Source: Butyrivibrio sp. (GTDB lineage: Bacteria; Bacillota; Clostridia; Lachnospirales; Lachnospiraceae). From it: DNA of 41,354 nt. The stretch is from NCBI RefSeq assembly GCF_017940685.1, contig NZ_JAGAYD010000127.1, positions 1 through 41,354 of the forward strand, given 5' to 3'. The position numbers were made by a program, and so were the translations under genes. Positions 3,186 through 41,272 of this stretch are shown piece by piece (the first letter of the stretch is position 1; each line of letters begins with the position of its first letter). The notes beneath the pieces were generated by a model that worked only from the letters and a program-made list of their open reading frames with translations, had not been told where the DNA came from and made no database searches.

Positions 3186-3203
3186 CTACTTACACTTAGG
3201 AGC

Positions 3204-5381: not shown

Positions 5382-5385
5382 GAAT

Positions 5386-6330: not shown

Positions 6331-6352
6331 GTTTATGGAGGAGTAATTACAA

Positions 6353-7246: not shown

Positions 7247-8466
7247 TGCCCACAAAATTTTTCGTGGTTATTGGTAAAAACTTCGGTGATGAGGGTAAGG
7301 GGCGAGTGACCCATATACTTTCAGACAGACCTGGTAAGAGCCTTGTGATCCGCCATAACGGCGGCGCTCAGTCAGGTCACACCGTAGTCATAGCTTCCGA
7401 TACGGACACAGATGATAAACTGCCACTTGAAGGCCCACATGAAAAGAGATTTATCTTTCACGAGGTCGGATCTGGCAGTTTTTGTGGTGCTGACACTTTG
7501 TGGATAGATACTTTTTTTCCGGACCTTTTTAAACTGAGGGATGAGTATGATTCTTTTTGTGAGGTATCAGGGCAGGCTCCAAGGATATACGCACTTCCTG
7601 ACACCAATGTGACTATAGTCTGCGATGTTCTCTTTAACATGGCCCTTGAATCCTCAAGGGGCAGTAAGCGCCATGGCAGCTGCGGAATGGGTATCTATGA
7701 GGCGTTTCTTAGAGCTGGGCAGGGCTTTGGGCTTACCATAAAAGAGGTCAAGACATTAAGCGAAAAAGACCTGGCAGAGAAGCTTATACATATCAGAAAC
7801 TATTATTACAGGCCAAGGATCGGGGAAATCTTTGGCGATGTGGGGGATTCCCAGTATCTTAAGGACATTCTTGACAATGTGGTCCTTAGAAATGCAGCCG
7901 CTGTGATGAAGAGAAATTCTGAGCTTGTGGAAATAGTATCAGGAGATGTGAGAACTTTTCTCAATAAGTATGACAATGTCATATTTGAAACAGGGCAGGG
8001 CCTGCTTCTTGATGCTGAGAATAAAAAATATGCTCCAAACGTCACAGGTTCAAGGACTGGACTTACTAATCCAGGAGCTTTTCTTGATGGCCTTGGCCTT
8101 GCCATAGATGAGGTGGTCTATGTGACAAGAAGCTACGTCACAAGACACGGAGCGGGAGAACTTTCCTTTGAGTGCGAAAGGCAGGAGCTTGGAGATGTGG
8201 AGGCTGATTCCACCAATGTGACCAATACATGGCAGGGATCCTTTAGATATGCGCCACATGCCTCTGTATATGACTTTATTGACCCTGTGATATCAGATCT
8301 TAAGCAGCTAAGTTACAGACCTAAGGTCACCTTAGTGGTAACCCACCTTTCGGAAACTGGCGGCAAAGTTGTTTTTCAGGACAGAGAAAGCGACATGACT
8401 GTCAAGGAACTTGGCATGATCAAGGAAGTTTCCATGGTGTTTGATGGTTTTTGGGAACTATCCTGA
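7246..8466 (+). CDS. Divergent adenylosuccinate synthetase (PurA) paralogue
   Basis: 406 residues, slightly short for PurA (~425-430). PurA joins IMP and aspartate at the cost of GTP. Here the N-terminal GDEGKG loop (14-19, with Asp15 matching E. coli Asp13) and GGAQSGHT (39-46, with His45 matching E. coli His41) keep the catalytic pair. FETGQGLLLD and YVTRHGAGEL match the IMP-site and C-terminal loops. Several positions differ: canonical GGHNAGHT has become GGAQSGHT, the TGRGIGP segment reads HGSCGMGI, and the TKLD motif that reads guanine reads THLSE (366-370). The last change suggests nucleotide use other than GTP. Co-translation with a vWA gene rather than purine genes also argues against a housekeeping role. 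Phage PurZ is another divergent relative, but PurZ loses the Asp retained here. Confidence 0.82.
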   Translation: MPTKFFVVIGKNFGDEGKGRVTHILSDRPGKSLVIRHNGGAQSGHTVVIASDTDTDDKLPLEGPHEKRFIFHEVGSGSFCGADTLWIDTFFPDLFKLRDEYDSFCEVSGQAPRIYALPDTNVTIVCDVLFNMALESSRGSKRHGSCGMGIYEAFLRAGQGFGLTIKEVKTLSEKDLAEKLIHIRNYYYRPRIGEIFGDVGDSQYLKDILDNVVLRNAAAVMKRNSELVEIVSGDVRTFLNKYDNVIFETGQGLLLDAENKKYAPNVTGSRTGLTNPGAFLDGLGLAIDEVVYVTRSYVTRHGAGELSFECERQELGDVEADSTNVTNTWQGSFRYAPHASVYDFIDPVISDLKQLSYRPKVTLVVTHLSETGGKVVFQDRESDMTVKELGMIKEVSMVFDGFWELS

Positions 8467-27178: not shown

Positions 27179-27287
27179 CATAAGACAAGAAACAAAAGAA
27201 TAACAGATTGAAATTTATAACAGGTTGAACATATTGAATGGCAATAGCGGCGCTATCACTATGTCCAACCTGTTTCTTTGTCTTATG
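27179..27287 (+). other. Long three-part hairpin in the 5' leader of the 27324 gene
   Basis: The outer arms CATAAGACAAGAAAC (27179-27193) and GTTTCTTTGTCTTATG (27272-27287) pair with one bulge. Inside, ACAGGTTGAACATA (27220-27233) and TATGTCCAACCTGT (27260-27273) pair with one mismatch, though the last two bases of the latter are shared with the outer arm. At the centre ATAGC/GCTAT (27244-27248 with 27252-27256) closes a three-base loop. A ~26-base A-rich single strand (27194-27219) forms an asymmetric bulge. It could be a cis-regulatory RNA, a small RNA or a mobile palindrome remnant; there is no T-run after it to make it a simple terminator. Confidence 0.55.
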
Positions 27288-27323
27288 AACCTTGAAAATA
27301 ACATATTTACGGAGGGTAAGTAC

Positions 27324-27836
27324 ATGAAAAAGATTGTAAAAACCTACACAGAAATAAAGCTAGAAGACGGAAAGGGACTTGATAAGTTCTACGTTGATCC
27401 CATGACCAAAACTTACCAGTATGAACATGCGCTCCTTACCATAGTTTCAGACCTCTTTAAGGAAACAGAAACCTCATCTCTTTTGCCTGACAGGCTAAAG
27501 CTCTTCTTCAATGAACTTCCAATCAGAAAGGAAGTTCAGGAGGAGGCAAGAAAGCAGAAGGAGGCCATGGGGCAGGCTTCTGATGGGAAGGAACCCTGCC
27601 ATAAGAAAACCCGTGACAGCGTCATGGAAGATGTGAGGGCTCTGGTAGAAAGAGACGTTGTGGGAAACGTAGACTTTCCCATGATGCACCAGTGCAGAGC
27701 CCAGGTAAGGGCCCTTCCAAGACAGGACGGATCTCACACTTTTCTTTTTACAGATGGTGTGTACAGCTTCTCAGTAAGGCTGGACTTTGGAGCGAAACCC
27801 AAGGGCCAGAAGCCAAAGAAAGTCGTTGTGATATAA
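27324..27836 (+). CDS. Unrecognised 170-residue protein
   Basis: 170 residues from ATG 27324, which has a strong GGAGGG 8 bases upstream; in-frame starts up to 27225 run through the leader hairpin and are rejected. It is soluble, with no signal peptide or membrane helix. The N-terminal half is mixed alpha/beta (YVDPMTKTYQYEHALLTIVS), the middle is a charged helix (~70-105), and the C-terminus has a beta hairpin (HTFLFTDGVYSFSVRLDFG) and a Lys-rich tail. No motif identifies it. The receiver-like gene follows 21 bases later behind its own GAGAGGGGG site, so the two are probably one transcript. Confidence 0.75.
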   Translation: MKKIVKTYTEIKLEDGKGLDKFYVDPMTKTYQYEHALLTIVSDLFKETETSSLLPDRLKLFFNELPIRKEVQEEARKQKEAMGQASDGKEPCHKKTRDSVMEDVRALVERDVVGNVDFPMMHQCRAQVRALPRQDGSHTFLFTDGVYSFSVRLDFGAKPKGQKPKKVVVI

Positions 27837-27857
27837 TCCAGAGAGGGGGTAAACAAA

Positions 27858-28247
27858 ATGAGAGTACTAAACATCGAAGATACACCAACTAAACACAGAG
27901 CCATAAGGGATGTGCTTGAGAGCTGCAGGATAACTGACATTGATTGCGAACGCAACCTTGCAGATGGCGTTGCAAGATATAAAGAGGCCCTGGCAGCAGG
28001 CAATCCCTATGACCTGCTCATCACAGACATGTGGTACCCACCCGAGAAGGGCGTTGGGGAAGATCGGTGCGGCGACAAGCTGGTTGAGATGGCCATCAGG
28101 GAGCACTGGGATGTGCCGATCCTTGTGTGTTCAAACCAAAACTACAACTACCCAGAAATCCTGGGGACGCTGTTCTATTCAGAAAATGTAGATTGGGAAG
28201 GGCAGCTGCGGGGATATGTTGAGCAGATAAAGAAGGAAAAGAGCTAA
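27858..28247 (+). CDS. Stand-alone receiver-like (REC) domain protein
   Basis: 129 residues, one domain. It follows the receiver pattern: acidic pair Glu7-Asp8 after the first strand, LLITDMWYP with the likely phospho-acceptor Asp57, and PILVCSNQN with Ser92 at the Thr/Ser switch position. The conserved Lys of the last strand is not seen (FYSENVDW occupies that place), and the loop after Asp57 carries an unusual acidic insertion (EKGVGEDRCGDK). There is no output domain and no histidine kinase nearby. It may be an atypical or unphosphorylated receiver that works by protein contact. The next gene starts 1 base after its stop. Confidence 0.7.
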   Translation: MRVLNIEDTPTKHRAIRDVLESCRITDIDCERNLADGVARYKEALAAGNPYDLLITDMWYPPEKGVGEDRCGDKLVEMAIREHWDVPILVCSNQNYNYPEILGTLFYSENVDWEGQLRGYVEQIKKEKS

Positions 28248-28248
28248 A

Positions 28249-29289
28249 ATGATTATAAGTGAGGATGAAAAGAGTCTTATAGAAATGTTTAGGGCGTCAG
28301 ATGATGTTCAGAGAGTAATGATTCTGACCTATGTTAGAAATCTGGCGCCTAAAAATGAACATGATATTATTGAAAGGCCCACTGAGAACTCAGGCAAGCA
28401 ATATGATGACAATCTAAAAAACAAGAAAATGCTCTGTAAGAGATTGCGGAGACTTGCGAGACTGGACAGAATAAGACTTGATGAGTCGGAACATACATCT
28501 GCGCTTAACCGGCATCTTTCTAAGTACTTTGACTATCTTGGCGTAGATAAACTGGAGTATGTCAAAAAATATCTTGAGCATATTCAGCCTTTTATGATAA
28601 AGGAGGTTAAAAGCCAGGAGAAATTCGACAATGCAATATATGTTCTTGATGAGTATTACAGGATAGCTGTGTACATCAAGGCAGATGCCACTCGCGGAGA
28701 AGAAATGATCATCTCTTTCCACGAGAACAATAAAAATGGCATTGCCAAAAGAGAACCAGTAAGAAAGAGTACCAGTGAAGTGTATGTATTTCCTGAGACT
28801 ATTAGCGCTCACGTTTCCGGTACTGATCTGTATGATATCAATCTCTTTATTACAAGAGGAGTGACAAGTCTGCCCATTAGCGTGTCTGCAAGGCGGTGCG
28901 ACGACGAGGGATTTTGGGTGAGGCTTGGTGATATTGAGAGAGCACTGGTGGAAACTGCCAATAGCTACTTACAGGATCTATATACGGCAGATCTGGACTA
29001 TTCGGAGGTTGAGCCCTTTTACTCCCTTCAGCAGATATCGTTTACTTCATATGGCACAGATGTCTTTTCCAGCATATCGCTGCTGATTGACAGCCTTCTG
29101 CTTCAGATGAGTCCCATAAGCAAGCAGGTCGCAGATTCTGCACTTTGTATATACTGCAGTACAATTGAACTACCTGATAAGTCCAGAAAAGAACTGATTG
29201 AAACCATGAAGGAGAGATATAAGGTAAACTCTGTCAGGATACTGCCAGAGATATTGAAGAGGGTTGAGATGAATCTTGGACAGTGTTAA
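28249..29289 (+). CDS. Unrecognised 346-residue protein beside the receiver-like gene
   Basis: 346 residues, soluble, no signal peptide. The N-terminal ~110 residues are helical and basic, with a short KRLRRLARLDRIRLDE stretch. The middle (~120-200) is beta-rich. The C-terminal part is helical with a hydrophobic segment (DVFSSISLLIDSLLLQM) too short and polar to be a clear membrane anchor. No family is recognised. It starts one base after the receiver-like gene, which suggests coupling; it could be that receiver's effector or partner. A promoter for the next gene lies just after its stop. Confidence 0.75.
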   Translation: MIISEDEKSLIEMFRASDDVQRVMILTYVRNLAPKNEHDIIERPTENSGKQYDDNLKNKKMLCKRLRRLARLDRIRLDESEHTSALNRHLSKYFDYLGVDKLEYVKKYLEHIQPFMIKEVKSQEKFDNAIYVLDEYYRIAVYIKADATRGEEMIISFHENNKNGIAKREPVRKSTSEVYVFPETISAHVSGTDLYDINLFITRGVTSLPISVSARRCDDEGFWVRLGDIERALVETANSYLQDLYTADLDYSEVEPFYSLQQISFTSYGTDVFSSISLLIDSLLLQMSPISKQVADSALCIYCSTIELPDKSRKELIETMKERYKVNSVRILPEILKRVEMNLGQC

Positions 29290-29322
29290 ACCAATGAAAT
29301 GATATATTTAGGGAAAATAGCG

Positions 29323-29331
29323 TGATATAAT
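29323..29331 (+). promoter_or_regulatory. Candidate extended -10 promoter for the GGDEF gene
   Basis: TGATATAAT is a perfect -10 with the TGn extension, 35 bases upstream of ATG 29366. No good -35 box is seen. Confidence 0.5.
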
Positions 29332-29365
29332 TGATATATCGATTATTTTCATATTGAGGGGGTCT

Positions 29366-30346
29366 ATGGATAGCTATTTGACTGGGGCTAAAAAGGCTTC
29401 GATTGGCAATGCTATAAAAAGCCTCTATCAGCTTATCGTTTTAGTTGAAGAGGGGAGTTTATCATGCCATTTGGTTGACTGTAACAAAGAACTTGATACT
29501 CTTAATGCTTCAAACGTCAGAGTCTATGACGATTTGTTTTCCTCGTTATATAAGAATACTCATCCGGAAGACAGGAATAGTCTGTTATTGCTTAGTAATA
29601 TCGATGATCTTAATAAAGCTCTTTCTGGGGAGGTTTACATATCTTGTGAGTGCCGCATCAGGCATACTGATCTGGGATATTATTGGTCAAGGATAACAAT
29701 ATGTAATGCTAAGGTGGAAGATAGTCCAACAGGCCACGAATATCTGATCTTATTAGAGGATGTCCATACTCAGAAGAATGTTCTTTTAGCTGATCGTAAC
29801 GAACTTCTTAAAACTATCAGTACGCTGGAAGATAAGTACAACAAGCTCTTTATCGAGAACATGACTGATGCCCAGACTGGCTGCTATAACAGAAAAGGCC
29901 TTAAGTATTCTGAGAATATTGCACTTCAGGATACCCGTGATAACAACAAGGATATCTTTGTATGTGTCCTGGACCTTAACGGTCTTAAGTACATGAATGA
30001 TACCTTTGGACACAGCGCAGGAGATACCGCCATAGCAACAGTTGCTGATGCACTCCAAAAAGCTGCTCCCAAGGGCTCAAGCATAATCAGGACTGGCGGA
30101 GATGAGTTCCTGGTTTTCTGTCCACTGGAAAAGGACAGTACTGAATATGAAAGCTTTGGAACTGTTCTTGAGTCAGAGCTTAATGATTATAACGCTAGTC
30201 ACGACAATCCCTTTGAAGTATCTGCAAGCTATGGATATGTCTTTTTACCACTAAAAGAGGGAATGGATACACTGGATGAATACATTGAGGTTGCTGATGA
30301 GAAGATGTATCGGATGAAAGAGGAAACGGATCCGCATAAGAGGTAG
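29366..30346 (+). CDS. GGDEF-domain diguanylate cyclase with PAS-like sensor
   Basis: 326 residues. The N-terminal ~120 residues resemble a PAS domain (ISCECRIRHTDLGYYWSRIT is the typical last strands), then a linking coiled coil (~135-160) and a GGDEF domain (~165-325). The active-site motif is intact (IRTGGDEFLVF, motif near 243-247), as is the NGLKYMNDTFGHSAGD metal/nucleotide segment. The inhibitory RxxD site that normally precedes GGDEF by five residues is absent, so product inhibition is unlikely at that site. No membrane helix. It should make cyclic di-GMP from two GTP in response to a cytosolic cue. ATG 29366 with the GAGGGGG site is preferred over the TTG at 29354. Confidence 0.9.
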   Translation: MDSYLTGAKKASIGNAIKSLYQLIVLVEEGSLSCHLVDCNKELDTLNASNVRVYDDLFSSLYKNTHPEDRNSLLLLSNIDDLNKALSGEVYISCECRIRHTDLGYYWSRITICNAKVEDSPTGHEYLILLEDVHTQKNVLLADRNELLKTISTLEDKYNKLFIENMTDAQTGCYNRKGLKYSENIALQDTRDNNKDIFVCVLDLNGLKYMNDTFGHSAGDTAIATVADALQKAAPKGSSIIRTGGDEFLVFCPLEKDSTEYESFGTVLESELNDYNASHDNPFEVSASYGYVFLPLKEGMDTLDEYIEVADEKMYRMKEETDPHKR

Positions 30347-30409: not shown

Positions 30410-31687
30410 ATGAATTTTGATGTTTTTGATGATATTGAATTTGATAGGAAAGATCAGCTTCTTAGAAATTGTAAGGCTGCGGAGCGATATATTATAGTAT
30501 CGCCTTTTATTTCTGTAGCGCATGCAAGAGCCGCTCTTGAAATACTGTGCAAAGGGATGATAAAGGAACATGCTGTGAAGCAGATTATACCATCGGGAGA
30601 TGGTAAGCCAGGGAATCCAAACCTGGCAACAATGATAGCTACTTGTGTTAAAAATGGAATAATTACAAAGACTGAAGATGCCGCAGTGATCAGAAAGAAT
30701 GGCAATGATGCTCTGCATATCAATAAAGGATCGCAAAAGATACAAGTGGTAAATGAAAAGAGCGTAAAGAAAGCCATGGACTCAGTGGAGGCTCTTTTTC
30801 ATGTTTTTCAGGATGTGTTTCATACTCATACAGATATTGATTTTGATAAGTTGAAGGTTCCATTTGGCTTTTTTGAAATTGTGCGTGCAGTGCCAAAAGC
30901 CCCTAATGAAGTTATTTTTGGTGAATTTAATTATTTTGTGAAAGATCCACAAGAAAACTATTATTATCTCCAGATATATCACAGAAACAGTGAAGAGGAG
31001 ATAGGAAATACTCTTGGTGAAAGGGGAATGCTGGCTGGTAATAGAATTAAAGGAAACAAAGGTAGAACGAGTTATCTTTTGGATGTTTACTATCCAAGTA
31101 ATTTACTTGCAGAGTCTGATAGGGAGTACATAGCATATTCTGTATATAACGATTCGTGCTTGCTTTCAGAGATGCAAGGAGGTCAATTAACAGACAAACA
31201 GGTAGTTATGATAGCTTTGGATATTACCAATGCTCTTTTGGAATTAGAGTCAATTGGTGAGGGAATTCATTTAAGAAATCTCCAGCCTGGAAATGTTATC
31301 ATTACGCCAAATGCTGACGGTTACATGGCAGGAGTAGTCAATATGGAAACTGCCAAGATCACTGGGTACGAAGCAACTGTAATTGGAAGCATGAGAGAAC
31401 TAATTACACAAAATCCATATATGCCCAGAGAACTAAGAAATTTCGCTGAAAATGGACCACTTGATATAAACTGGGAAAAAGTTGACGTGTATTCTCTTGG
31501 TAAAATAATGGTTTATTGCAAGGACCCGTCACTGGTTAAGGAAGAAATAGACGATTCAGTGCTATATGATATTTTCCCCGATGAAATAGCAGACATTCTT
31601 TATGACATATTTACAAGCTCAATTAACATGATATACAGTCCCATGGAGTTAAAGGAGAAACTGCAGGATGTTGTTGACCAGTATTAA
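30410..31687 (+). CDS. DUF4145/HEPN-like domain fused to a pseudokinase
   Basis: 425 residues. Residues ~15-135 form a helical domain resembling DUF4145, part of the HEPN group: AHARAALEILCKG, then VIRKNGNDALH with Arg95, Gly98-Asn99 and His103. Residues ~160-420 resemble a protein kinase, but the key residues are changed. The catalytic loop reads LRNLQPGN (288-295), so the HRD Asp is Asn290. The DFG Asp is Asn311 (VVNMETA). The beta-3 Lys position looks like Gln (YYLQIY). The Asn of the loop (295) remains. This is best read as a pseudokinase. A GGAG site lies 8 bases before the ATG. Its 3' end overlaps the next, apparently active, kinase gene by 20 bases, suggesting the two proteins form a pair. 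Confidence 0.75.
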   Translation: MNFDVFDDIEFDRKDQLLRNCKAAERYIIVSPFISVAHARAALEILCKGMIKEHAVKQIIPSGDGKPGNPNLATMIATCVKNGIITKTEDAAVIRKNGNDALHINKGSQKIQVVNEKSVKKAMDSVEALFHVFQDVFHTHTDIDFDKLKVPFGFFEIVRAVPKAPNEVIFGEFNYFVKDPQENYYYLQIYHRNSEEEIGNTLGERGMLAGNRIKGNKGRTSYLLDVYYPSNLLAESDREYIAYSVYNDSCLLSEMQGGQLTDKQVVMIALDITNALLELESIGEGIHLRNLQPGNVIITPNADGYMAGVVNMETAKITGYEATVIGSMRELITQNPYMPRELRNFAENGPLDINWEKVDVYSLGKIMVYCKDPSLVKEEIDDSVLYDIFPDEIADILYDIFTSSINMIYSPMELKEKLQDVVDQY

Positions 31688-32537
31688 CACTGGAAAAGAG
31701 TATAACGTAGAGGGACCAATTTATAGTAATGAGCTCTCAAATATTTGGTGCGGAAAGACAAAAACTAGTGAAAACAAAGAACTATTTGTCAAAATACTAA
31801 ATTATGGGAAAATTGAAGACTCTAAAGTGGCCAATAGCCTATTGGAAGTGAGCAAAGAAGAAGCAAAGACACTAGAGAAGGTCTCTAAATGTACGAAGAG
31901 AACTCCAAGAGTTTTTGATTCTTGGGATAATCGCAAAGAAAAGCAATTTGTGATCGTCATGGATATGGTGCCGGGATGCTCTCTAAGACAGTGGATGAAT
32001 AAACATAATAAAGAAACATTAACTGGGAAGGATGTTTTTGTTCGCAAGTGCATCATAATCCAGATCTGCGAGATAATGAGAGATATCAATCGAAAGTATT
32101 CTTCCTTTGTACACAGAGACCTTAAGCCAGAGAATATTTTCATCAATTTTAATGCCAAGACAAAAAGATGGGATGTATACATTATTGATTTTGGATGTGC
32201 AAATCTAAACCACATCAGAAATGTTGGTACAACAAATTATCAGGCACCAGAGCAGCTCGGACAAAAAGCCTTTAGTGTCAGTATTACTAATAGGACAGAT
32301 ATTTTTGCAATAGGGCAGATTTTTTATGAGATGCTGTTTGGTTATGCACCAAGAATCGGGTTTGAGTATCAGTATAGAGCCAGAGAAAATAAATGGTGTC
32401 AGATTCCGCAACCTCCGGAATATCTTATGGGGATTACGGGGATGGACAAGTTACTGGCGCTAATAGAGAAAATGACTAGCTTGGATTTAAGGGAAAGACC
32501 AGGATACGAAACAATAATTCCTAGATTAAAGAATTGA
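31668..32537 (+). CDS. Serine/threonine protein kinase (apparently active)
   Basis: 289 residues, the catalytic domain only, with no membrane segment or PASTA repeats. Kinase landmarks are complete: Lys42 (LFVKIL), a Glu-rich C-helix (EEAKTLEKV), the hinge MDMVPGCSLRQWM, the catalytic loop VHRDLKPENI with Asp151, the DFG motif IIDFGCAN with Asp174, the activation-segment end GTTNYQAPEQ, and IFAIGQIFYEML of the F-helix. It lacks a clear GxGxxG loop (GPIYSNELSNIW stands there). It begins inside the pseudokinase gene (20-base overlap). Likely targets are neighbours in this operon, such as the pseudokinase, the helicase or the NACHT protein; this is inference. Confidence 0.92.
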   Translation: MLLTSINTGKEYNVEGPIYSNELSNIWCGKTKTSENKELFVKILNYGKIEDSKVANSLLEVSKEEAKTLEKVSKCTKRTPRVFDSWDNRKEKQFVIVMDMVPGCSLRQWMNKHNKETLTGKDVFVRKCIIIQICEIMRDINRKYSSFVHRDLKPENIFINFNAKTKRWDVYIIDFGCANLNHIRNVGTTNYQAPEQLGQKAFSVSITNRTDIFAIGQIFYEMLFGYAPRIGFEYQYRARENKWCQIPQPPEYLMGITGMDKLLALIEKMTSLDLRERPGYETIIPRLKN

Positions 32538-32550
32538 AGGTGGAATAAAT

Positions 32551-32694
32551 ATGGCGGATATAATTCAGGATCTGTTTACTAGTCAGGAGTGGGCATTATT
32601 AGAGTATTTCAATAATGATGATTTGGAACATATAAAGGATTTTCCAGTACATCTGGATGCGGATCCAGAGAGGATGGAAAATGATGATAAATAA
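32551..32694 (+). CDS. 47-residue acidic protein
   Basis: ATG 32551 to TAA 32692-32694, 47 residues, beginning MADIIQDLFTSQEWALLEYF and ending in an acidic tail (PERMENDDK). Support is a good GAAGGTGG site 7 bases upstream, position 13 bases after the kinase stop, and an overlap of its 3' end with the start of the next gene at 32681, a typical coupling arrangement. No family is recognised. Its size and charge suit a small adaptor, kinase substrate or inhibitor. Confidence 0.65.
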   Translation: MADIIQDLFTSQEWALLEYFNNDDLEHIKDFPVHLDADPERMENDDK

Positions 32695-33067
32695 TTATAG
32701 TATTAAGCTACATCCGCGCAATTATAAAGAGTTAGATGGAAGACTGATTTTTTATTTCCGCGAAAAGATGGTAAAAAGTGAAGACTTTGAGGCCATATTA
32801 CACGAAATAAGATCTGCCAAAACGCTTGTTATAACTTCTTTTAAGAAGAATGAATTTTCAGAGAGATACTATGCCTTGTACATAGGAAGATATGTATTGT
32901 ATTTTGATCGTAGCGACAACAATAACTTCCGATGTACTAAGGTCCTTTTTGGAAAAAAGCCGCTGAAAAAAAAGAGAATCTATATAAGACAAAGATTTTT
33001 ACTATTATTCCGGCGGGGGGAGTCTTTGCCATTTTTAACGGGCAGATGTATCCCAAAAATCTATTAA
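32681..33067 (+). CDS. N-terminal part of the helicase, in a shifted frame
   Basis: 128 residues from ATG 32681 (GAGAGGATGG upstream); an ORF start at 32657 is in frame but lies before that site. Up to about residue 91 it reads as a normal alpha/beta protein (LVITSFKKNEFSERYYALYIG). After the two A-runs at 32953-32973 this frame turns into implausible basic sequence (LKKKRIYIRQRFLLLFRRG) and stops. The frame one base back is open from 32941 through the helicase ATG at 33046 and reads sensibly there (KTKIFTIIPAGGVFAIFNG). So this is most likely the N-terminal domain of the helicase, joined by a -1 frameshift or separated by a recent mutation. Confidence 0.7.
   Translation: MMINNYSIKLHPRNYKELDGRLIFYFREKMVKSEDFEAILHEIRSAKTLVITSFKKNEFSERYYALYIGRYVLYFDRSDNNNFRCTKVLFGKKPLKKKRIYIRQRFLLLFRRGESLPFLTGRCIPKIY
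32951..32974 (+). other. Candidate -1 frameshift site: two tandem A_AAA_AAG heptamers
   Basis: In the frame of the gene starting at 32681, codons GGA AAA AAG (32951-32959) and AAA AAA AAG (32966-32974) each contain the heptamer A_AAA_AAG, the slippery sequence known from dnaX and from IS elements. A -1 slip at either one moves ribosomes into the helicase frame, which has no stop from 32941 to 36016. The 8-A tract could also cause transcript slippage or be a single-base insertion. Confidence 0.6.
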
Positions 33068-36018
33068 CTGAACATGAAGCCTGGCAGATGGACTCCGATC
33101 TGATAAATGATCTTCAGGATTCTATGGAGAGTTATTTTGATTCAGATGAGGATGAGCCTGAACAGGAGAAAAAGGAAGATTCAGTAAAGGTATCTGAGAG
33201 GTTTAAAAGAAACATTCTTAAGCCTTTTCAGGATTATACTGCAAAAGAACAGTGGGTTGAAGACAATAACCAGGCCCAGGGTGAAGGAGTTTCTTTTTTT
33301 AAGCGAGAATTTAGAAAAGCAGGGGCAAAAGGTCCTAGTTATGCGTTCTATTCCATAGATACTGAAGCAGACCCAGAAAAAGGCATGTTTCAGATTGGAG
33401 AACAGGCAACAATAATAAGTGAAATTGAATCAGAGATTGTGAAGATAAACGGTGTTATCACTGACATTGACTGTGAGAGTGAAGACGCTGTAATTTTCAT
33501 GATCTCTTTATTTCGTCAGGAAGATGATAGTGCAATTCCTCAGGAAGGAAAAATAGCTAAAGCGGTAAGTCAGGTACAGACTTCTGTCAGAACTCGCGTC
33601 ATTAGAAATATGGAGCGCGGAAAACTCGAATCAAAGTACATGTACAAAGACTTTGAAGACTTTTCTGTAAAGGGATATGAAGAGGCGCAGTCTGATTTAA
33701 AGGATTATCTGATATCAAAAATGGCAGATGATTGTCCACCAAATCAGATGCAGCTGGAGGCTATCATAAAGGGAATACTGACAGAGGACGTGCTGCTGGT
33801 TCTGGGACCTCCGGGAACAGGAAAGACTACTGTTATTAGCTATTGGGTTGAGTATTTCATCAAGAAGGGACAGAGAGTCTTAATATCCTCACAGAATAAT
33901 GCTGCAGTAGATAATGTTTTGGCTCGATTTGGGACAATTGCTGAGACAGTAAGACTAGGAAGAGAAGAAAAGGTCCAGGAGAATTGCCAGGATTATCTTC
34001 CTGAAAAAAAGATTGCTTCTATGGAGAAGTACTTTAATGACAACCACAGTAGAGTCATTGATGACATTAAGCATAATCAAAATGAGTTAGAGAACTACAA
34101 AACGAGACTTCAAGAATATCAAGATAAGTTGAATGAACTGAGCAAACTCTCGGATGACATAAAAAGGCAAAACGAGAAAGTTCGATCAGTACTTCGTAAT
34201 ATTGCCAATCACTATGAAGTGATCAAGGCACTTGAGAAGGATATCGATAATATTCGTTGGGCAAGAGCACATAAGGAAATTTTCCTGGAGGTATATGAGA
34301 CCAAGAGTTTTTTGTGGAGAATATTAAATAGGAGGTATGCAAAGCGAGTAAAAGGCGATCTGTTAAAGTCTGAAGCTGATCTGAATAATAAACGTAAAAT
34401 CTATGCTGAAACAGTGAATGCTTATAATACTTCCGTCGGATTTGTCAAAACAGAAATAGAGAAGATCAACGAGACAGATTCTGCTAAAAATTTCTTTGAA
34501 AAGTTACATGAGGTTGAAGAAAATACGCAAGAGGCGGTGCAGGAAGCATTTCTTCCGGATCTTAAGGGAGAATCAGCTGCGCTGTTCAGGAAACCAGATT
34601 TTTCTTCAAAGCCACGTGAGAATTATTCTGTAATACGTGAACAGCAAAACCATGTGAAAAATGTCATTGTATCGATCAAGCTGGCTGAAAATGCCTTAAA
34701 ATCATGGAATGATCTTGTCAATAATAATAGAAATGATATTTTCCAAGATGCCCTCCTTGAAACGTGTCAAATTGTTGGAGCTACATGCATTGGCATTAAT
34801 TCAAATAAGAAATTTGCCAATGTTAAATTTGATGTAGCTATCGTGGATGAATCTGGGCAGATACAGATTCATAATGCACTTATTCCTATGACAAGAGCAA
34901 GGAAAAATCTGCTTCTTGGAGACTATAAACAAATCCCTCCTTGTGCAAATGATGATGTAGTTGCCGCTTGTAAAGCTGATGATATAGATACAAAACTGCT
35001 TAACATGAGCTTCTTTGAATTCCTGTTTGAGTCGATGAGAAAGAAGACTATTCAGCAGCTTGAAGCTGAAGGTAGGGATAAGAGCGAGTTATTGCGTCCC
35101 GTATTATCTGACTACCAAAGAGTACCACATAAGAAATTTGAACCGGATGTGGTAGAGGATATGATTGAGAGGGTTACAAATGACCCTAAAAAACTGGTTA
35201 ATCTTAATAGTCAGTTCAGAATGCCAGGCAATATTTCAGATATTATCTCGGAATGGTTTTATGAAAGAAATTATCATTCCAGCTACAACATGGAGAACTT
35301 TGAAATATTGGTGCCAGGTACTGATAAACCTTTGGTTGTGATTTCTACAAGTAATGCAGCAGGACGAGAAGAGAGTCAACCAGAAACAAAGATGGGATAT
35401 CACAACCATTATGAGGCAAAAATGATTGCTGATATTGTCGAAAAAGCCATTAATCTTCAGCCTGATGGGGCACGTGAAAAATTTGTGAATGAAATTGAAA
35501 ATAAGATAGGCATTATATCTGCCTATGGCGCGCAGGTCAGACTTATCAGAGAATATCTAAGAAAAAAGAAACTTGGAATAGGAGAAAACCAGATAAGAAG
35601 TATGGTGGCTTCTCTTGACAGTTTTCAAGGGCAGGAAAGACCGCTTATTCTGTATAGCCTTACAAGGAGTACCAACTATAAGAAGCCGGATATGGGCAGG
35701 GTTGGTTTCATGAAAGAGCTTCGGCGTCTCAATGTTGCGTTTACAAGATGTAAGAAGCAGCTCGTTATCATTGGAGACATTGATTACCTTTCTGAGTGTA
35801 TGAACATGGAGAAGGTTCCTGAAGGTGAGAACGAGTGGCCATGCTCTGGTCAGCAGGAAAATCAAATGATAAGTCAGGAGATGATAGATCAGTGCGCTGA
35901 ATGCCCTGCTGTATGTGAACGTAAATTTGCCAGATTTATGAGACTACTTATGCAGCATGTTCATGACGGAGCTGGAGATTTTATTCAATCTGAAGATTAT
36001 TTGAAAAAGGATGCGTAA
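33046..36018 (+). CDS. Upf1/Dna2-like superfamily 1 helicase
   Basis: 990 residues from the internal ATG 33046; the natural product probably also includes the 32681 segment. Helicase motifs are intact: Walker A GPPGTGKT (254-261), motif Ia QNNAAVDNV, Walker B VAIVDESGQ (DE at 601-602), motif III LLGDYKQIPP, NSQFRMPGNIS, SAYGAQVRLI, motif V SFQGQERPLI (~860) and motif VI LNVAFTRCKKQ (~895). A ~250-residue coiled-coil-rich insertion separates motif Ia from Walker B, as in Upf1-like enzymes. Before Walker A lies a beta-rich domain (~110-190). The C-terminus has a Cys cluster (Cys950, 953, 957) that could bind metal. It should move on RNA or single-stranded DNA using ATP. No nuclease motif is seen. 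The next gene starts right after its stop. Confidence 0.92.
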   Translation: MYPKNLLTEHEAWQMDSDLINDLQDSMESYFDSDEDEPEQEKKEDSVKVSERFKRNILKPFQDYTAKEQWVEDNNQAQGEGVSFFKREFRKAGAKGPSYAFYSIDTEADPEKGMFQIGEQATIISEIESEIVKINGVITDIDCESEDAVIFMISLFRQEDDSAIPQEGKIAKAVSQVQTSVRTRVIRNMERGKLESKYMYKDFEDFSVKGYEEAQSDLKDYLISKMADDCPPNQMQLEAIIKGILTEDVLLVLGPPGTGKTTVISYWVEYFIKKGQRVLISSQNNAAVDNVLARFGTIAETVRLGREEKVQENCQDYLPEKKIASMEKYFNDNHSRVIDDIKHNQNELENYKTRLQEYQDKLNELSKLSDDIKRQNEKVRSVLRNIANHYEVIKALEKDIDNIRWARAHKEIFLEVYETKSFLWRILNRRYAKRVKGDLLKSEADLNNKRKIYAETVNAYNTSVGFVKTEIEKINETDSAKNFFEKLHEVEENTQEAVQEAFLPDLKGESAALFRKPDFSSKPRENYSVIREQQNHVKNVIVSIKLAENALKSWNDLVNNNRNDIFQDALLETCQIVGATCIGINSNKKFANVKFDVAIVDESGQIQIHNALIPMTRARKNLLLGDYKQIPPCANDDVVAACKADDIDTKLLNMSFFEFLFESMRKKTIQQLEAEGRDKSELLRPVLSDYQRVPHKKFEPDVVEDMIERVTNDPKKLVNLNSQFRMPGNISDIISEWFYERNYHSSYNMENFEILVPGTDKPLVVISTSNAAGREESQPETKMGYHNHYEAKMIADIVEKAINLQPDGAREKFVNEIENKIGIISAYGAQVRLIREYLRKKKLGIGENQIRSMVASLDSFQGQERPLILYSLTRSTNYKKPDMGRVGFMKELRRLNVAFTRCKKQLVIIGDIDYLSECMNMEKVPEGENEWPCSGQQENQMISQEMIDQCAECPAVCERKFARFMRLLMQHVHDGAGDFIQSEDYLKKDA

Positions 36019-37026
36019 ATGAAGAGTACAGCAAAGGAAATTCGGGAAGAATCAAAAGCTCTTTTTTTAGAGCGGTTTGGAGGAAATACACCACTTAAGC
36101 TAGTGTATTTTCATACTTTTCTGTGTCCAGTGGCATTTGCAGAGGCAATGGTCAAAGAGCACATTATAGAGGATTACGATGCTTTAGAGTTATTGGTTTT
36201 GCGCTTGTATAACGCTGGGTTCAGAACGACAAAGGAAATGGCATCGCTTTCAGGTATGAAAGAGGTGATGATTGAAAGAGCGTTAATTAATGAAATCAAT
36301 GTATATCATCATATAGATCCTGAGATAGATGATCTGACAGATATGGGTAAAAAAACATTTATTGAAAATGAAATTAGTAATTCAGTAAATCATATTTTAT
36401 ACACAACACCAAGACGACTTCAGATTGAAGCTGTGACAGGAACGGTGGTTCCTGCTTACCTTGAAGAGAATAATATCAAGTTTTTAAAAACTGTGTTGGA
36501 AGAAAAGGCTGATGGTGTTGTCCCCAGAGAATCCGTAAGATTTGATGAAGAGCTCAAGCGGGAAATAAACGATCGTTTGGCTGAATACAAGCATATGGAT
36601 ATATTAAATGAAGGAGATACTATCGTAGGAATTGAATCTATAAATACTAATCAGCTGTATTACAGGTGGGCATATCTTGCTAAGTTTGAAGGAATGAAGT
36701 ATCCAATGATTGTTATGCAAGGGAAAAAGACAGTTGGAAAGGTTAATTCTGAATCCATAAAAAAGAGAGAATATGGGAAAAGAGTGGCAGTTCCATTAGC
36801 TATTTCCAGGAGTGACAGTAGTTTGCTTGAACAAAATGGAATGAGCTTTGATGACGTTCTGATAAGGGATGATTATTCCTTTGATTATCTGTTGGAAAAG
36901 ATTGAGAACTTTAAATTCCATGAAGAGCAGGATGATATTTCTCTTGAAAACGAAAATGCAGTTTATGAAGATGAGAGAATAATGGAGACTATAGATGAGT
37001 CAGAATTTAAGCCTGAAGAAGAGTGA
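36019..37026 (+). CDS. Unrecognised island protein with possible helix-turn-helix region
   Basis: 335 residues, soluble. Residues ~55-100 (LLVLRLYNAGFRTTKEMASLSGMKEVMIERAL) look like a winged helix-turn-helix: helix, turn with FRTTKEMASLSG, then recognition-type helix. The middle (~120-160) is rich in Asn and hydrophobic residues. The C-terminal half is beta/alpha (YYRWAYLAKFEGMKYPMIVM), and the last ~40 residues are strongly acidic. The ATG abuts the helicase stop, so translation is likely coupled and the protein may load the helicase or recognise its target. No catalytic motif is visible. The 3' end overlaps the next gene by 32 bases. Confidence 0.72.
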   Translation: MKSTAKEIREESKALFLERFGGNTPLKLVYFHTFLCPVAFAEAMVKEHIIEDYDALELLVLRLYNAGFRTTKEMASLSGMKEVMIERALINEINVYHHIDPEIDDLTDMGKKTFIENEISNSVNHILYTTPRRLQIEAVTGTVVPAYLEENNIKFLKTVLEEKADGVVPRESVRFDEELKREINDRLAEYKHMDILNEGDTIVGIESINTNQLYYRWAYLAKFEGMKYPMIVMQGKKTVGKVNSESIKKREYGKRVAVPLAISRSDSSLLEQNGMSFDDVLIRDDYSFDYLLEKIENFKFHEEQDDISLENENAVYEDERIMETIDESEFKPEEE

Positions 37027-37642
37027 AGAACCTTTAATAACCAGAACCTGGACGTGTGAATGTGGATGTGAAAATCCAACGTATCTGAAAGCATGCAAGA
37101 ATTGTTCCAGCACTGTGCCAGATTCTTTAAAGGAAACAATATTCAAAGAGGAAATTGAATATCAGAATAAAATACATGCATATGAAGAAAAGCAGAGAAA
37201 GGAAGTATTTATACTTTTTGGATTGCTTGCTGTATTCTTCTTGCATGAGCTTATTTTTGCATTTATAGCTTTTTTATTAAAAGTAATTTTATTTCTATTT
37301 GTGGTACTGGCGATTGCCATGGGAGCTCTTAGTGTTTTTGTCATGGTTAAAGGTGTTGTAAAGAGAACAGCCATGGAGCAAATGGGGTATGGAATTTATG
37401 CTGCATATTTGGTATTCATGGTTTTGACGTCAATCATTATTAAGGTAACCAACACTTGGGATATGGTACTTGGAATTGCGATGACAGTATGTACCGGAGG
37501 CTTTGCCTTATCTTCCCTGATCGAAGCGATAAAGAACAAAAGACTGGGAATTGCCATAACTTTGTTTATTACGGCATTGATAACATTTGGTATAGGCTAC
37601 TGGATGTATAAATCAGGCGCTTTATTGATTCTACATAACTAA
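36995..37642 (+). CDS. Zinc-ribbon protein with C-terminal membrane helices
   Basis: 215 residues. The N-terminus has a RanBP2-like or ribbon zinc finger: Trp19, then Cys21, Cys23, Cys25, Asn27, Cys34 and Cys37 (ACKNC). A charged helix (~50-68) is followed by four or five hydrophobic segments between ~70 and 213 (LLAVFFLHELIFAFIAFLL, ILFLFVVLAIAMGALSVFVM and others). This suits a membrane-anchored partner that could locate the island proteins or act as an effector by disturbing the membrane. ATG 36995 has GGAG seven bases upstream, inside the gene before it. No specific family is recognised. Confidence 0.75.
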   Translation: MSQNLSLKKSEEPLITRTWTCECGCENPTYLKACKNCSSTVPDSLKETIFKEEIEYQNKIHAYEEKQRKEVFILFGLLAVFFLHELIFAFIAFLLKVILFLFVVLAIAMGALSVFVMVKGVVKRTAMEQMGYGIYAAYLVFMVLTSIIIKVTNTWDMVLGIAMTVCTGGFALSSLIEAIKNKRLGIAITLFITALITFGIGYWMYKSGALLILHN

Positions 37643-37661
37643 GTGTGTTGAGGTGTAAGAT

Positions 37662-40600
37662 ATGGAAAAGCATGAAAAGCAGGAACTGCCAGCAAATATC
37701 TATAAGATGTACGATGCTTATGAGAATGAAACAAGCACCACCAGAAAAATGGAGCTGATCCTTGATGTATTTAAGCAGACCGTGCAGTTTTTTGGATGCT
37801 TGTTTTTGAGTGAATACTTGTGGGATGAAGAAAAGGTCAATTCCACAGTAAACGGATACATTAGACAGATGGGCAGACCAGCACTTGGTACTTGGGACGG
37901 GCTGGTGCGCAGTTATGCAAAAGAATTCTGCAGGAAAAAGAAATCATGGTTTCAGGGATTTTGGGACTGTTACAAAAGTGTTAGTGAGAAAAAAGTTAGT
38001 TGTGTTTATGTGGGCCGTTTTAGAGAAGAGAACAGTGAAAAAGGCAACGTTTTTCAAGAACTGATAATGCTAAGAAATCAAATAGCACACGGGGCACAGT
38101 ATCCAAACAGTGAAGAGGCCTCAGCAATTTTGAAGGTTTATGCACCTTATGTAGAAGCTATTTTGCATGCCTTTGTTCCGTTTTTCACTAGATATAAAGT
38201 CGCAAAATGTATCAATATTGATACATATGATGAGGAGTTGGATGAAGATTGCTATATTGCAACCTTCGATATCTTTAATTATTCAATAAAAGAAAATGAT
38301 AATTATGTTGTTAAGTGGCCTACGGACACGCAGGAACTTGGAGACGATCCTTCTGAGTTTTTTAAAGACCAAGAGGCCAGGAGCCCAGAGGAGGAGGGGG
38401 TCCAGTTCTACCTTCTTGATATGGAAAACACTCAGAGAATTTTGAAATTCTCTGAAATTCTTGTGGAAATACTTGAGAGTGACATCCATGAAGAATATAT
38501 GATTTATGATGGATATGGAAATAGTGATGTTACATATGTTGGGGTAAGAGAACGCCGTAAATTGAAATTGTACCTTCAGGCAATTAATGCAAAATTTACT
38601 AGCCGTGGAATCAGGCAGCATTGGATGCATCATGATTTCAACATGGATGGATTCAGACAGTATATTAATGAGCTTTCCCAAATTGCTATAGATAATCATA
38701 AGGAAAGTTTAAAATACGTGCCGGATTTGTATGTCCCAAGAGCTTGCGATGAAACTATAAAAGAGTTTTTAAACTCTGATAAGACAACTATTTTGATTAA
38801 GGCTGAAGCTGGTGTTGGAAAAACATGTTTTTTGTGTCACACCGCTGAAATGCTTATGAGTGATCGTGAAAGATATGCGGTTTACTTTTATCAGGGAGAA
38901 ACCCTGACTGAGGTTAATAGAGAAGACATTCTCTTTAGAAGGTTAGAACAGGAATGCCTTGAAAAAGGTGATTTTTTATCTTCTGAGAACTTCTTGAGTT
39001 TTATGGCGGAGCATAATGAGGAAAACATCCAGCTTGTCATGATAGTTGATGCTGTTAACGAGGCTTATGACACTGAAAGAGTTCTGAAGGAAATTGATGC
39101 AATAACAAGTCGCGGAAAAGATTATCCCTGGCTAAAAATAATCGTCAGCATCAGAGGAATAAGTTATGATCTGCTCCAAAAGCATACGGTGAATAAAGGT
39201 AAAAAATTCCAATTTATGACTAGCCGTGACAGGTTCTTCTCTGTTGTTGAGGATGGGGAACCCAAATATTATCTTGGAATTGACAGATGGAATCTGCTTC
39301 AGGTTGAAGAGGCCTATGATAGGTATAGGAGCAAAAGTAAGAGGAAGCTTAGCATTCCCAAATTCAGGATGCTTGATAATGAACTTAAACAAGTTCTTTC
39401 AAGTCCGCTTTCAATGAGGGTTTTCTTTGACCTGACAGAGCTGGTAAAAGGTATTAGTATCCATTCTGATTCAGATCTGTTTGCTGCATTCGATAAGGAA
39501 ATTAGTAAGGGAGATGAGGTCATCTCCAATAATCCTGATTTTGTTACTAGTACTCTTAAAAACAGTATTGTGGAAGCGATGCTGGAAGAGAAAAGTAACG
39601 CCATCGATTCTGATCGTATTGAAAAGATTAGCGATGGCCTTATTAAGAAAGCCGATGATGACTACAGATTTGTTATCCTTACTCCATTAGAGAGATTATT
39701 GGATGCAGGTATTGTTTGCGAAAAGGAGTCATTGATTGATAATACCTCATTTAGAAGTATTTCTTTTGTGTATCAGAAGTACCTTGAATACCTGATCTGT
39801 AGAAGAATTGATAAAGAAAAACCATTAGAACAGGTAGCAGATGAGCTTATAGAAACTATTGGATGGGAAGAACTTCCAGAGGCATTTTTAGCATATTGTT
39901 CTGCACTTGATAGATATAAGAACTGCGCGGAAGTTGTGGACTTGGTAGTAGGTAAGCTCAGAGACAAGAAACAGAATCTTGATGCCTTCAAAACTGTCCT
40001 TATTCCCTACTGTGTCAGACGATTTATTGAAAAAGAATCGGAAGATGACAATGACATGATGACTCAGTTGATGAAAGTGCTTGAAAAGTATGAAGTTGTG
40101 GAATGGGGCGTTGACATCGTTGAGTCCTTCAGACATATGGTTAAGTCTGACCTGGCAAATAAATTTGCTGATGTTATTTTGGAATGCGAAGCTATAAACA
40201 ATGAATTAAGGAGCAGAGTTCTTTTCCATAAATCTATGATATGCCAGAACAGGTCTCAGTATCAGGAGTCCATCAGTCTTCTTGAAAGCGCCAAAGATGG
40301 AGAACTGAATGAGGCACTGAACAATCAGATAATTGTTCAGCTTGCTAAGAACCAGAGAAAGAATGGTTCAGTTCAGGAAGCAGAGACTCTTTTGGAAAAG
40401 ATGATCAGTGATAGCTCAGAAGACACGCCTTTTTATCCATATGCGCTGATCCAAAGGGGACTTTGCAGCGTTGAAAGAAATAAATATGATACGGCGTTAG
40501 ATGATTATGAGAAGGCATTAGCAATTTCCAGAACTCAACATGATTATCACACTGTGGCTTATAACCTGCTTGGTATCTCCCATGTCTACAAACAGAGAGG

Positions 40601-40958
40601 CGATAGCGAGAATGTGAGAAAATCTCTCATGGAGGTTTATGAGCTCTCAAGTCGCTATGGCTATTTAGATCTTTTATCTGATTGTCTTCATGCCCTGGCT
40701 GGACTATATGTGGATGAAGGCAAGTACGAGGATGCTGAAAAGTATACGGATCAGACTATAGCTCTGTGGGAGAGCTCAGGTCATTACGAGGGACTTTCTA
40801 TCATGTATATCATGCGTGGAATCGTGCTGACCAAGAAGGGAAAGAATAAATATAGTGATGACATAAAAGCTGCGGTTGACAGGGCAGAAGAACTGCATGA
40901 ATTTATCAAAAATGACGCAGTGGAGAGAGAGTATCAGAAGTACAAAAGTATGCTATAA
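37662..40958 (+). CDS. HEPN-NACHT-TPR STAND protein
   Basis: 1098 residues. Residues ~1-180 are a helical HEPN-like domain with the RNase signature RNQIAH (Arg138 to His143, an RX4H motif whose Arg is followed by Asn, as expected) and an upstream GRPALGTW segment seen in related domains. A linker (~190-360) leads to a NACHT/STAND NTPase: Walker A AEAGVGKT (381-388), Walker B LVMIVDAVNE (458-467) in the NACHT-type DAxNE form, then a winged-helix region. Residues ~840-1090 are TPR-like repeats (ALIQRGLCSVERNKYDTALD). This is the plan of bacterial NLR-like immune sensors: the repeats sense, NTP binding drives oligomerisation, and HEPN cuts RNA. It is 19 bases after the zinc-ribbon gene behind GTTGAGGTG. 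A defence role is inferred. Confidence 0.85.
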   Translation: MEKHEKQELPANIYKMYDAYENETSTTRKMELILDVFKQTVQFFGCLFLSEYLWDEEKVNSTVNGYIRQMGRPALGTWDGLVRSYAKEFCRKKKSWFQGFWDCYKSVSEKKVSCVYVGRFREENSEKGNVFQELIMLRNQIAHGAQYPNSEEASAILKVYAPYVEAILHAFVPFFTRYKVAKCINIDTYDEELDEDCYIATFDIFNYSIKENDNYVVKWPTDTQELGDDPSEFFKDQEARSPEEEGVQFYLLDMENTQRILKFSEILVEILESDIHEEYMIYDGYGNSDVTYVGVRERRKLKLYLQAINAKFTSRGIRQHWMHHDFNMDGFRQYINELSQIAIDNHKESLKYVPDLYVPRACDETIKEFLNSDKTTILIKAEAGVGKTCFLCHTAEMLMSDRERYAVYFYQGETLTEVNREDILFRRLEQECLEKGDFLSSENFLSFMAEHNEENIQLVMIVDAVNEAYDTERVLKEIDAITSRGKDYPWLKIIVSIRGISYDLLQKHTVNKGKKFQFMTSRDRFFSVVEDGEPKYYLGIDRWNLLQVEEAYDRYRSKSKRKLSIPKFRMLDNELKQVLSSPLSMRVFFDLTELVKGISIHSDSDLFAAFDKEISKGDEVISNNPDFVTSTLKNSIVEAMLEEKSNAIDSDRIEKISDGLIKKADDDYRFVILTPLERLLDAGIVCEKESLIDNTSFRSISFVYQKYLEYLICRRIDKEKPLEQVADELIETIGWEELPEAFLAYCSALDRYKNCAEVVDLVVGKLRDKKQNLDAFKTVLIPYCVRRFIEKESEDDNDMMTQLMKVLEKYEVVEWGVDIVESFRHMVKSDLANKFADVILECEAINNELRSRVLFHKSMICQNRSQYQESISLLESAKDGELNEALNNQIIVQLAKNQRKNGSVQEAETLLEKMISDSSEDTPFYPYALIQRGLCSVERNKYDTALDDYEKALAISRTQHDYHTVAYNLLGISHVYKQRGDSENVRKSLMEVYELSSRYGYLDLLSDCLHALAGLYVDEGKYEDAEKYTDQTIALWESSGHYEGLSIMYIMRGIVLTKKGKNKYSDDIKAAVDRAEELHEFIKNDAVEREYQKYKSML

Positions 40959-40990
40959 ACAAAATATTAACTGAGAGGGTAAAGATTATT

Positions 40991-41272
40991 ATGGGCGATC
41001 CAATTAAAAGTTATGTTTCCAGATATGTTATACCTTTTTATTTCGATAATAGTAGCAATGACTATTCAAGAATTCAGGATAGTCTTTGCGATAAATCTTA
41101 TTTAAGTAAATTAAAGGAAGATAAGGTCAATATTGCATTGCCTTCAGACGGAGAGTGGATTAAGGCAGGCTTTTGGGAGAATTATAGGTATAAAGATAGT
41201 AATAAAACTAAAGAAAGGCTCTTCGTTAGTTTGTGTGGGTATATAAAACGCTATAACCCTTGTAAATATTGA
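40991..41272 (+). CDS. Short unrecognised protein, possibly a truncated gene
   Basis: 93 residues starting MGDPIKSYVSRYVIPFYFDN, with a GAGAGGG site 13 bases before the ATG. It reads like the N-terminus of a larger conflict-system protein: the first ~75 residues look well folded, then the sequence ends in YIKRYNPCKY immediately before an inverted repeat and what may be a transposase start. The downstream part of the original gene may have been displaced by an insertion. It could equally be a complete small protein. It lies 32 bases after the NACHT gene, so it probably shares its transcript. Confidence 0.55.
   Translation: MGDPIKSYVSRYVIPFYFDNSSNDYSRIQDSLCDKSYLSKLKEDKVNIALPSDGEWIKAGFWENYRYKDSNKTKERLFVSLCGYIKRYNPCKY

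Follow-up and report, generated by a model that had tools for sequence, protein, structure and literature searches.

The window analysed here is an entire contig (C244, 41,354 bases) of a Butyrivibrio sp. genome. The locus studied (positions 30410-41272) is a run of genes in which a pseudokinase gene (psk), a kinase gene (kin), a helicase gene (hel) and a gene for a winged helix-turn-helix (wHTH) protein (mkob) follow one another in an order that recurs in six other genomes and partly resembles the Mokosh type I immune system. The conserved unit (30410-37642) extends to the end of a zinc-ribbon membrane protein gene (znTM), and is followed by a NACHT-type gene and a truncated gene. All genes named in the initial annotation are present at their coordinates on the plus strand, with spacings ranging from a 32-base overlap to a 32-base gap, which bears out the tightly packed, head-to-tail arrangement; psk itself lies 63 bases downstream of a GGDEF gene. 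The residues singled out in that annotation were likewise correctly placed, namely, RNQIAH at 138-143 (His143), the Walker A motif AEAGVGKT at 381-388 (Lys387) and, in the kinase, HRDLKPEN from residue 149 (Asp151).

Genes of the conserved unit

The first gene, psk (30410..31687, plus strand), encodes a predicted N-terminal helical domain of the DUF4145 family (HEPN clan) followed by a C-terminal pseudokinase. The kinase fold lacks the catalytic aspartates, with HRN replacing HRD and the DFG aspartate missing, as is diagnostic of a pseudokinase. Thus, this half of the proposed DUF4145/HEPN-like pseudokinase stands, whereas the other half is less firm: the DUF4145 match in the window protein (E 3e-4) is just under the Pfam cut-off, the domain also scores under the cut-off in locus L025, passes it in L015 and L016, and is not reported for L017, L029 and L030. 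The R..GN...H motif of psk corresponds to R95, N99 and H103, of which the histidine is kept in all seven loci compared below and the arginine in five. The predicted structure of the protein is of low confidence, and the rows of the fold search cover the kinase part only and so have no bearing on the HEPN fold. In L016, an extra stand-alone DUF4145 part of psk (5748-6170; psk profile E 9e-24) lies immediately upstream of psk.

The product of kin (31668..32537, plus strand) is a Ser/Thr kinase (Pfam Pkinase, E 2e-24) predicted to be active, as had been proposed, given its intact HRD and DFG aspartates; both are kept in all seven loci. Its PADLOC matches include mad6 (4e-30), PD-T4-6 (2e-24) and the kinase part of MkoA (6e-18). 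Between kin and hel lies an open reading frame (ORF) for a 47-aa acidic protein (32551..32694, plus strand). A small ORF of 38-51 codons is found at this place in six of the seven loci (there is none in L030), and position is the main support for it, because the sequences are weakly alike across loci and the L016 version is not acidic.

The core of hel (33046..36018, plus strand) encodes an Upf1-like superfamily 1 (SF1) helicase (Pfam AAA_11/AAA_12, E 1e-35/6e-39) in which the motifs GPPGTGKT (254), DESGQ (601), NSQFRM (721) and SFQGQE (859) are intact. The protein matches MkoA of PADLOC with an E of 2e-92 and, in the PDB, DNA2, SMUBP2 and UPF1. The possible wHTH protein of the initial annotation, encoded by mkob (36019..37026, plus strand), proved to carry an N-terminal MarR-type winged helix (residues 49-122) followed by a second domain, and to match MkoB of PADLOC (E 2e-7). 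In the profile-profile comparison with MkoB (probability 93.4, E 2.6e-7 over 84 columns), the match is confined to the winged-helix region. For the second domain, no fold match was obtained (best Foldseek E 0.21, all rows shown covering about residues 49-122), and the protein has no Pfam PLD match at E values up to 1.

The last gene of the unit, znTM (36995..37642, plus strand), encodes an N-terminal zinc ribbon (WTCECGCEN...CKNC), the cysteines of which are invariant in all four aligned sequences, and five hydrophobic segments predicted from hydropathy, in agreement with its annotation as a zinc-ribbon membrane protein. By tblastn, it matches L015, L016 and L029 (E 2e-6 to 2e-5) and has no match in L017. 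A zinc-ribbon membrane gene stands directly after mkob in five of the seven loci (the window, L015, L016, L029 and, by alignment only, L017), accompanied in all of these except the window by a further small membrane ORF. The MkoB-like protein of L025 (733 aa) has five hydrophobic segments fused at its end. Further genes adjoin the unit in individual relatives: a member of the CorA-like effector family (PADLOC CorA, E 2e-62) comes right behind the membrane genes in L015 (13612-14958, genome G975), and genes for Hsp70, a TPR-tandem-AAA protein and a 570-aa protein without a Pfam match follow the MkoB-like gene in L030 (3369-8997), which belongs to a genome of the same genus as the window (G1406).

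Distribution of the unit

The order psk-kin-hel-mkob is found in seven loci, namely, the window, L015, L016, L017, L025, L029 and L030, that is, in the window and six other genomes, spanning four families and five genera. These loci were retrieved with two different seeds, the helicase and the MkoB-like protein, and neither psk nor kin ever served as a seed; L020, L021 and L022 duplicate L016, L017 and L015, respectively, and were not counted separately. That psk, kin, the helicase and the wHTH gene stand in this order in six further genomes makes the core more than a chance grouping. With the helicase as a seed, six of the 391 genomes of the class match at an E of 1e-25, own genome included; three of the other five carry the operon (L015, L016 and L017), whereas L018 and L019 encode a related helicase in another setting. 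At an E of 1e-60, the window helicase matches only its own genome in a comparison with 299 genomes of the family. The MkoB-like seed retrieved two of 392 genomes of the order (own and G609, which contains a broken remnant), and a four-row MkoB-like profile matched two of 398 genomes of the phylum (own and G1093, with L025) and four of 80 genomes of the genus (own, G1441 with L029, G1406 with L030 and, weakly, G1393 with L031, E 1e-4). Thus, among the five other genomes found with the MkoB-like seed or profile, three have the full gene order (L025, L029 and L030), G1393 has the kinase and the helicase without psk, and G609 has the remnant. In the latter (L006, 8963-9700), fragments of the pseudokinase and of the MkoB-like protein are run together and the middle of the operon is gone.

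In a helicase tree of 14 rows, the seven core loci form one group (support 98/98), within which the window and L029 fall together (100/99). Two canonical MkoA rows are placed outside this group, where several branches are long and placement is unsure. The helicase, kinase and MkoB-like proteins of the relatives agree with the MkoA and MkoB calls that PADLOC models give for the window.

Two other gene settings came to light in these searches. The more distant set in L031 (8294-16023, G1393) consists of genes in a row for a vWA-like protein (recognized by eye), a PP2C phosphatase, a kinase, an SF1 helicase and a protein with a weak MkoB match (E 2e-4). In L018 (2969-12233, G838) and L019 (5398-13222, G907), an MkoA-like SF1 helicase (E 3e-116 to PADLOC MkoA for L018) lies in a locus of the type III CRISPR-like kind, where its neighbours are a short Cas10, a protein resembling Csm4 (E 1e-5), CARF-HEPN proteins and one protein of 382 aa that has no match; no further Cas gene is present among the scanned genes of L018. 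Searches of viral contigs with the helicase and the MkoB-like protein confirmed no relative, nor did a first scan of genome contigs with the window helicase; the MkoB-like protein and the L025 psk had no match among plasmids, and phage records gave only four partial matches to the helicase.

The distribution bears on whether the unit is concerned with immunity at all. It could instead serve housekeeping or stress-related quality control of RNA or DNA, with a kinase-regulated Upf1/Sen1-like helicase, a DNA-binding partner and a membrane anchor. The matches of the helicase to DNA2, SMUBP2, UPF1 and SEN1 and the chaperone genes adjoining the unit in L030 would fit such a role. However, a spread this patchy, with the unit or its traces in two of 392 order, four of 80 genus and two of 398 phylum genomes even when the own genome is included, together with the broken remnant in G609, is the behaviour of accessory genes, and we regard a quality-control function as unlikely.

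The helicase frame break, the NACHT gene and the contig end

The helicase core is preceded by an ORF in another frame (frame 2; 32657..33067, plus strand), which encodes the N-terminal domain of the helicase and, by comparison with L029, starts near 32681. In tblastn, this first part matches L029 with an E of 7e-8 and aligns with residues 1-109 of the L029 helicase; it is also matched by a hidden Markov model of the helicases of six relatives (E 5e-5). In a three-sequence comparison, the two parts match consecutive stretches of a single 1041-aa ORF of L029 (G1441, same genus; E 1e-10 and 7e-11). As judged from this alignment, ORFs 32657-33067 and 33046-36018 belong to a single helicase gene that is spread over two frames. 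The frames meet in a lysine-rich stretch that contains two in-frame A_AAA_AAG heptamers, at 32953 and 32968 (32953..32974, plus strand), with the -1 frame open from 32941; elsewhere in coding sequence, this heptamer occurs eight times in 38.8 kb. Runs of A are also sites at which indels arise, and a change in the length of an A run would look identical to a frameshift site, so that the junction is either a site of programmed -1 frameshifting or a homopolymer indel. RNA folding gave a z score of -2.72 for 101 bases including the site, and 0.26 and -1.25 for two stretches downstream of it. Intact copies of the helicase do exist, given that five relatives (L015, L017, L025, L029 and L030) have a single ORF including the N-terminal domain. 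In L016, the N-terminal domain also lies in another frame (by eye), without an A_AAA_AAG heptamer; with an assembly coverage of 2.3, this locus lends no support to programmed frameshifting.

Immediately downstream of the conserved unit lies a gene (37662..40958, plus strand) for a NACHT-type STAND NTPase with tetratricopeptide repeats (TPR) and an N-terminal HEPN-like motif, RNQIAH. The HEPN-NACHT-TPR architecture predicted for this protein holds in part: NPHP3_N (5e-6) and TPR_12 (6e-12) are above the Pfam cut-off and NACHT (E 0.01) below it, while the putative HEPN part is recognized by the motif, since no HEPN model occurs among the 25 of 30 Pfam families listed. The protein matches PADLOC Avs2 (E 2e-15) in two stretches, the best one being residues 372-499 of 1098, within the NTPase part. 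This single gene shares with Avs and bacterial NACHT defence proteins a STAND NTPase, TPR at the C-terminus and a HEPN-like motif near the N-terminus; it differs in that the Avs2 likeness is greatest over the NTPase part, and no close relative of the window gene was found in the plasmid, viral-contig, genus and family comparisons.

The initial annotation had counted this gene as a member of the same system, and gene-order comparison separates the two: psk-kin-hel-mkob recurs in six other genomes, whereas the stretches of the six further loci, the same-genus one among them, contain no match to the NACHT gene (the L017 contig stops shortly past its membrane genes), and neither do 79 other genomes of the genus, 328 other genomes of the family, viral contigs or plasmids. 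Judged by these comparisons, the HEPN-NACHT-TPR gene is adjacent to the conserved unit and is not part of it. It is, accordingly, very improbable in our view that all eight or nine genes form one system with the NACHT-HEPN protein as its RNA-cutting output, even though the genes share a strand, are separated, from znTM onwards, by just 19 and 32 bases and have no terminator-like site listed between znTM and the NACHT gene. A rather likely arrangement, which overlaps with the explanation that we favour, is that of two adjoining systems, one being the Mokosh-like core and the other an Avs-like NACHT defence gene with a partner gene, as suggested by the completeness of the core without the NACHT gene in other genomes and by the Avs2 match, best over the NTPase region.

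The final gene of the run, downstream of the NACHT gene, is truncated (40991..41216, plus strand) and has neither a Pfam nor a plasmid match. Its reading frame enters a repeat at 41217, in which the contig stops (41217..41354). Because these 138 bases recur without a difference at the end of contig C91, from the same genome, the gene is genuine only to about 41216, and the remainder of what had been annotated as a short or truncated protein is repeat sequence, probably the terminal part of a mobile element where the assembly breaks off. A short-pattern search for the far side of the interrupted gene returned 16 loose matches versus 11 for the reversed control, none of them usable.

The broken helicase frame and the interrupted last gene raise the question of whether the window copy is a decaying cluster, for which the decayed remnant in G609 provides a precedent. 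We consider this possible and yet doubtful, given that the other core genes are intact along with their motifs, that a separate start is present in the 990-aa ORF of the helicase core, and that the frames join at a pair of slippery heptamers, with the shift in the direction required for programmed frameshifting.

Two further regions of the contig contain gene sets of their own. Just upstream of psk (27225-30346) are genes for a receiver-like protein (by eye), two proteins without a Pfam match and a GGDEF protein with a weak PAS match; for three of the four proteins (all except 27225-27836), tblastn found no match in the locus stretches of the relatives. At 1023-8466, separate from the kinase-helicase unit, lies an odd set that comprises two ABC transporters, the first bearing a C39 peptidase domain and the second recognized by eye. 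Also recognized by eye were a zinc-ribbon protein, in which the motif HGDIKPDSI is kinase-like, and a vWA-like protein; an adenylosuccinate synthetase homologue (E 1e-27) and an ABC/MacB-type set (by eye) come next.

Relation to Mokosh and possible function

Mokosh type I, as defined here from Table 1 of PMC10952713 and from plasmid loci L036 (Pseudanabaena) and L038 (Agrobacterium), comprises a Ser/Thr kinase, an Upf1-like SF1 helicase and MkoB. The kinase, the helicase and the protein with the N-terminal region of MkoB occur in the same order in the window, so that, as far as protein comparisons indicate, the unit is not wholly undescribed. The view that no described system has this exact set thus needs qualification: part of the order is that of Mokosh type I, whereas the unfused genes, the HEPN-pseudokinase gene and the zinc-ribbon membrane gene or genes after the MkoB-like gene set the unit apart. 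On the whole, the original interpretation is supported in part. In L036 and L038, the kinase and the helicase are fused and followed by MkoB; in the window and all six relatives, they are separate genes, and the MkoB partner, directly downstream of the helicase, is similar over its N-terminal region only. On an Azospirillum plasmid (L035), the kinase, the helicase and the MkoB-like protein are separate ORFs too. The PLD domain listed in that table is not seen in the window; it is present in L036 (E 1e-9) and absent from L038 in spite of a strong MkoB match, so PLD is not universal in Mokosh. The NERD domain, also listed there, does not appear in the complete Pfam lists for psk and kin or in the 25 of 30 families listed for the helicase, and DUF4145 stands in its place. 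With neither fusion nor PLD nor NERD, the set is therefore best described as a Mokosh-like variant and not as a plain member.

Other known systems are similar to parts of the unit. As described in PMC12839542 and PMC10853773, PglW of type 2 BREX joins a NERD domain to two kinases, one inactive and one active, and the N-terminal modules of DndF include HEPN, NERD and tandem inactive-active kinases; the former paper brings together pseudokinase, HEPN, helicase and phage defense. The L015 psk matches PglW over the kinase region (E 4e-9), and kin matches the NCBIfam PglW model (7e-6). Here, however, DUF4145/HEPN stands in place of NERD and the kinases are encoded by two genes, and PglX, PglZ and BrxC are absent from the PADLOC families listed for ten window proteins (for kin, 25 of 34 families), setting the unit apart from type 2 BREX. 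With UPF1, IGHMBP2 and DNA2, the helicase shares the SF1 core and motifs and differs in the N-terminal domain and the operon; we make no claim of a shared role.

Taken together, we consider it an even call that the unit is a variant, with unfused genes, of a Mokosh type I-like immune system, with its role in immunity inferred from this likeness and from the patchy spread. Several observations weigh against this assignment. In controls, the 1607-position MkoA model matched 11 and the MkoB model nine of 14 well-known genomes, so that single hits are unspecific and none proves membership; the weight of the link is therefore carried by three matches in Mokosh order and by the profile-profile E of 2.6e-7. 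The MkoB likeness itself is mainly that of a common winged helix, and kin scores better for mad6 and PD-T4-6 than for MkoA. DUF4145 passes the cut-off in just two of the seven psk proteins, and its arginine is lysine in two of seven. The zinc-ribbon membrane gene is missing from two of the seven loci, L030 carrying Hsp70 and AAA genes in its place. With its helicase frame interrupted, the window copy may be partly inactive. Finally, according to PMC11291487, citing earlier work, Mokosh degrades viral transcripts, which would favour a nuclease or RNA-cleavage output over a membrane one. Searches that covered neither preprints nor most subscription papers returned no experimental paper on the Mokosh mechanism and none joining Mokosh, transmembrane, kinase and winged helix.

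If the unit is such a Mokosh-like variant, the helicase and the winged-helix protein might bind foreign or abnormal nucleic acid, which would alter a complex of the kinase with the pseudokinase, its restrainer or activator; phosphorylation would then release the output. The main output would most likely be membrane damage by the zinc-ribbon membrane protein, joined in four relatives by the second small membrane protein, because the place of PLD at the end of a classical MkoB is here taken by the membrane proteins and, in L025, the MkoB-like protein itself carries the membrane part as a fusion. RNA cleavage by HEPN could provide a second or back-up output, and the NACHT gene would be an extra defence gene, acquired separately.

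A more far-reaching proposal, which we think improbable, is that the unit represents a separate immune class, sister to Mokosh, in which a membrane output replaces the nuclease, the trigger lock is split between a HEPN-pseudokinase and a kinase, and the making of the helicase relies on -1 frameshifting. If so, frameshifting at the tandem A_AAA_AAG would yield a full-length and an N-terminally shorter helicase in the window host, and the membrane output would consist of zinc-ribbon membrane proteins or of segments fused to the MkoB-like protein.

With regard to the Mokosh-like variant that we favour, the unit would be a naturally dismantled version, with one gene per domain and another neighbour where PLD would be, in which the sensing helicase, the kinase pair and the output could each be removed and tested singly. 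More broadly, the comparison of loci suggests that the kinase, helicase and wHTH protein form a core that can be reused with different attachments, namely, PLD, membrane, Hsp70/AAA or PP2C/vWA parts.

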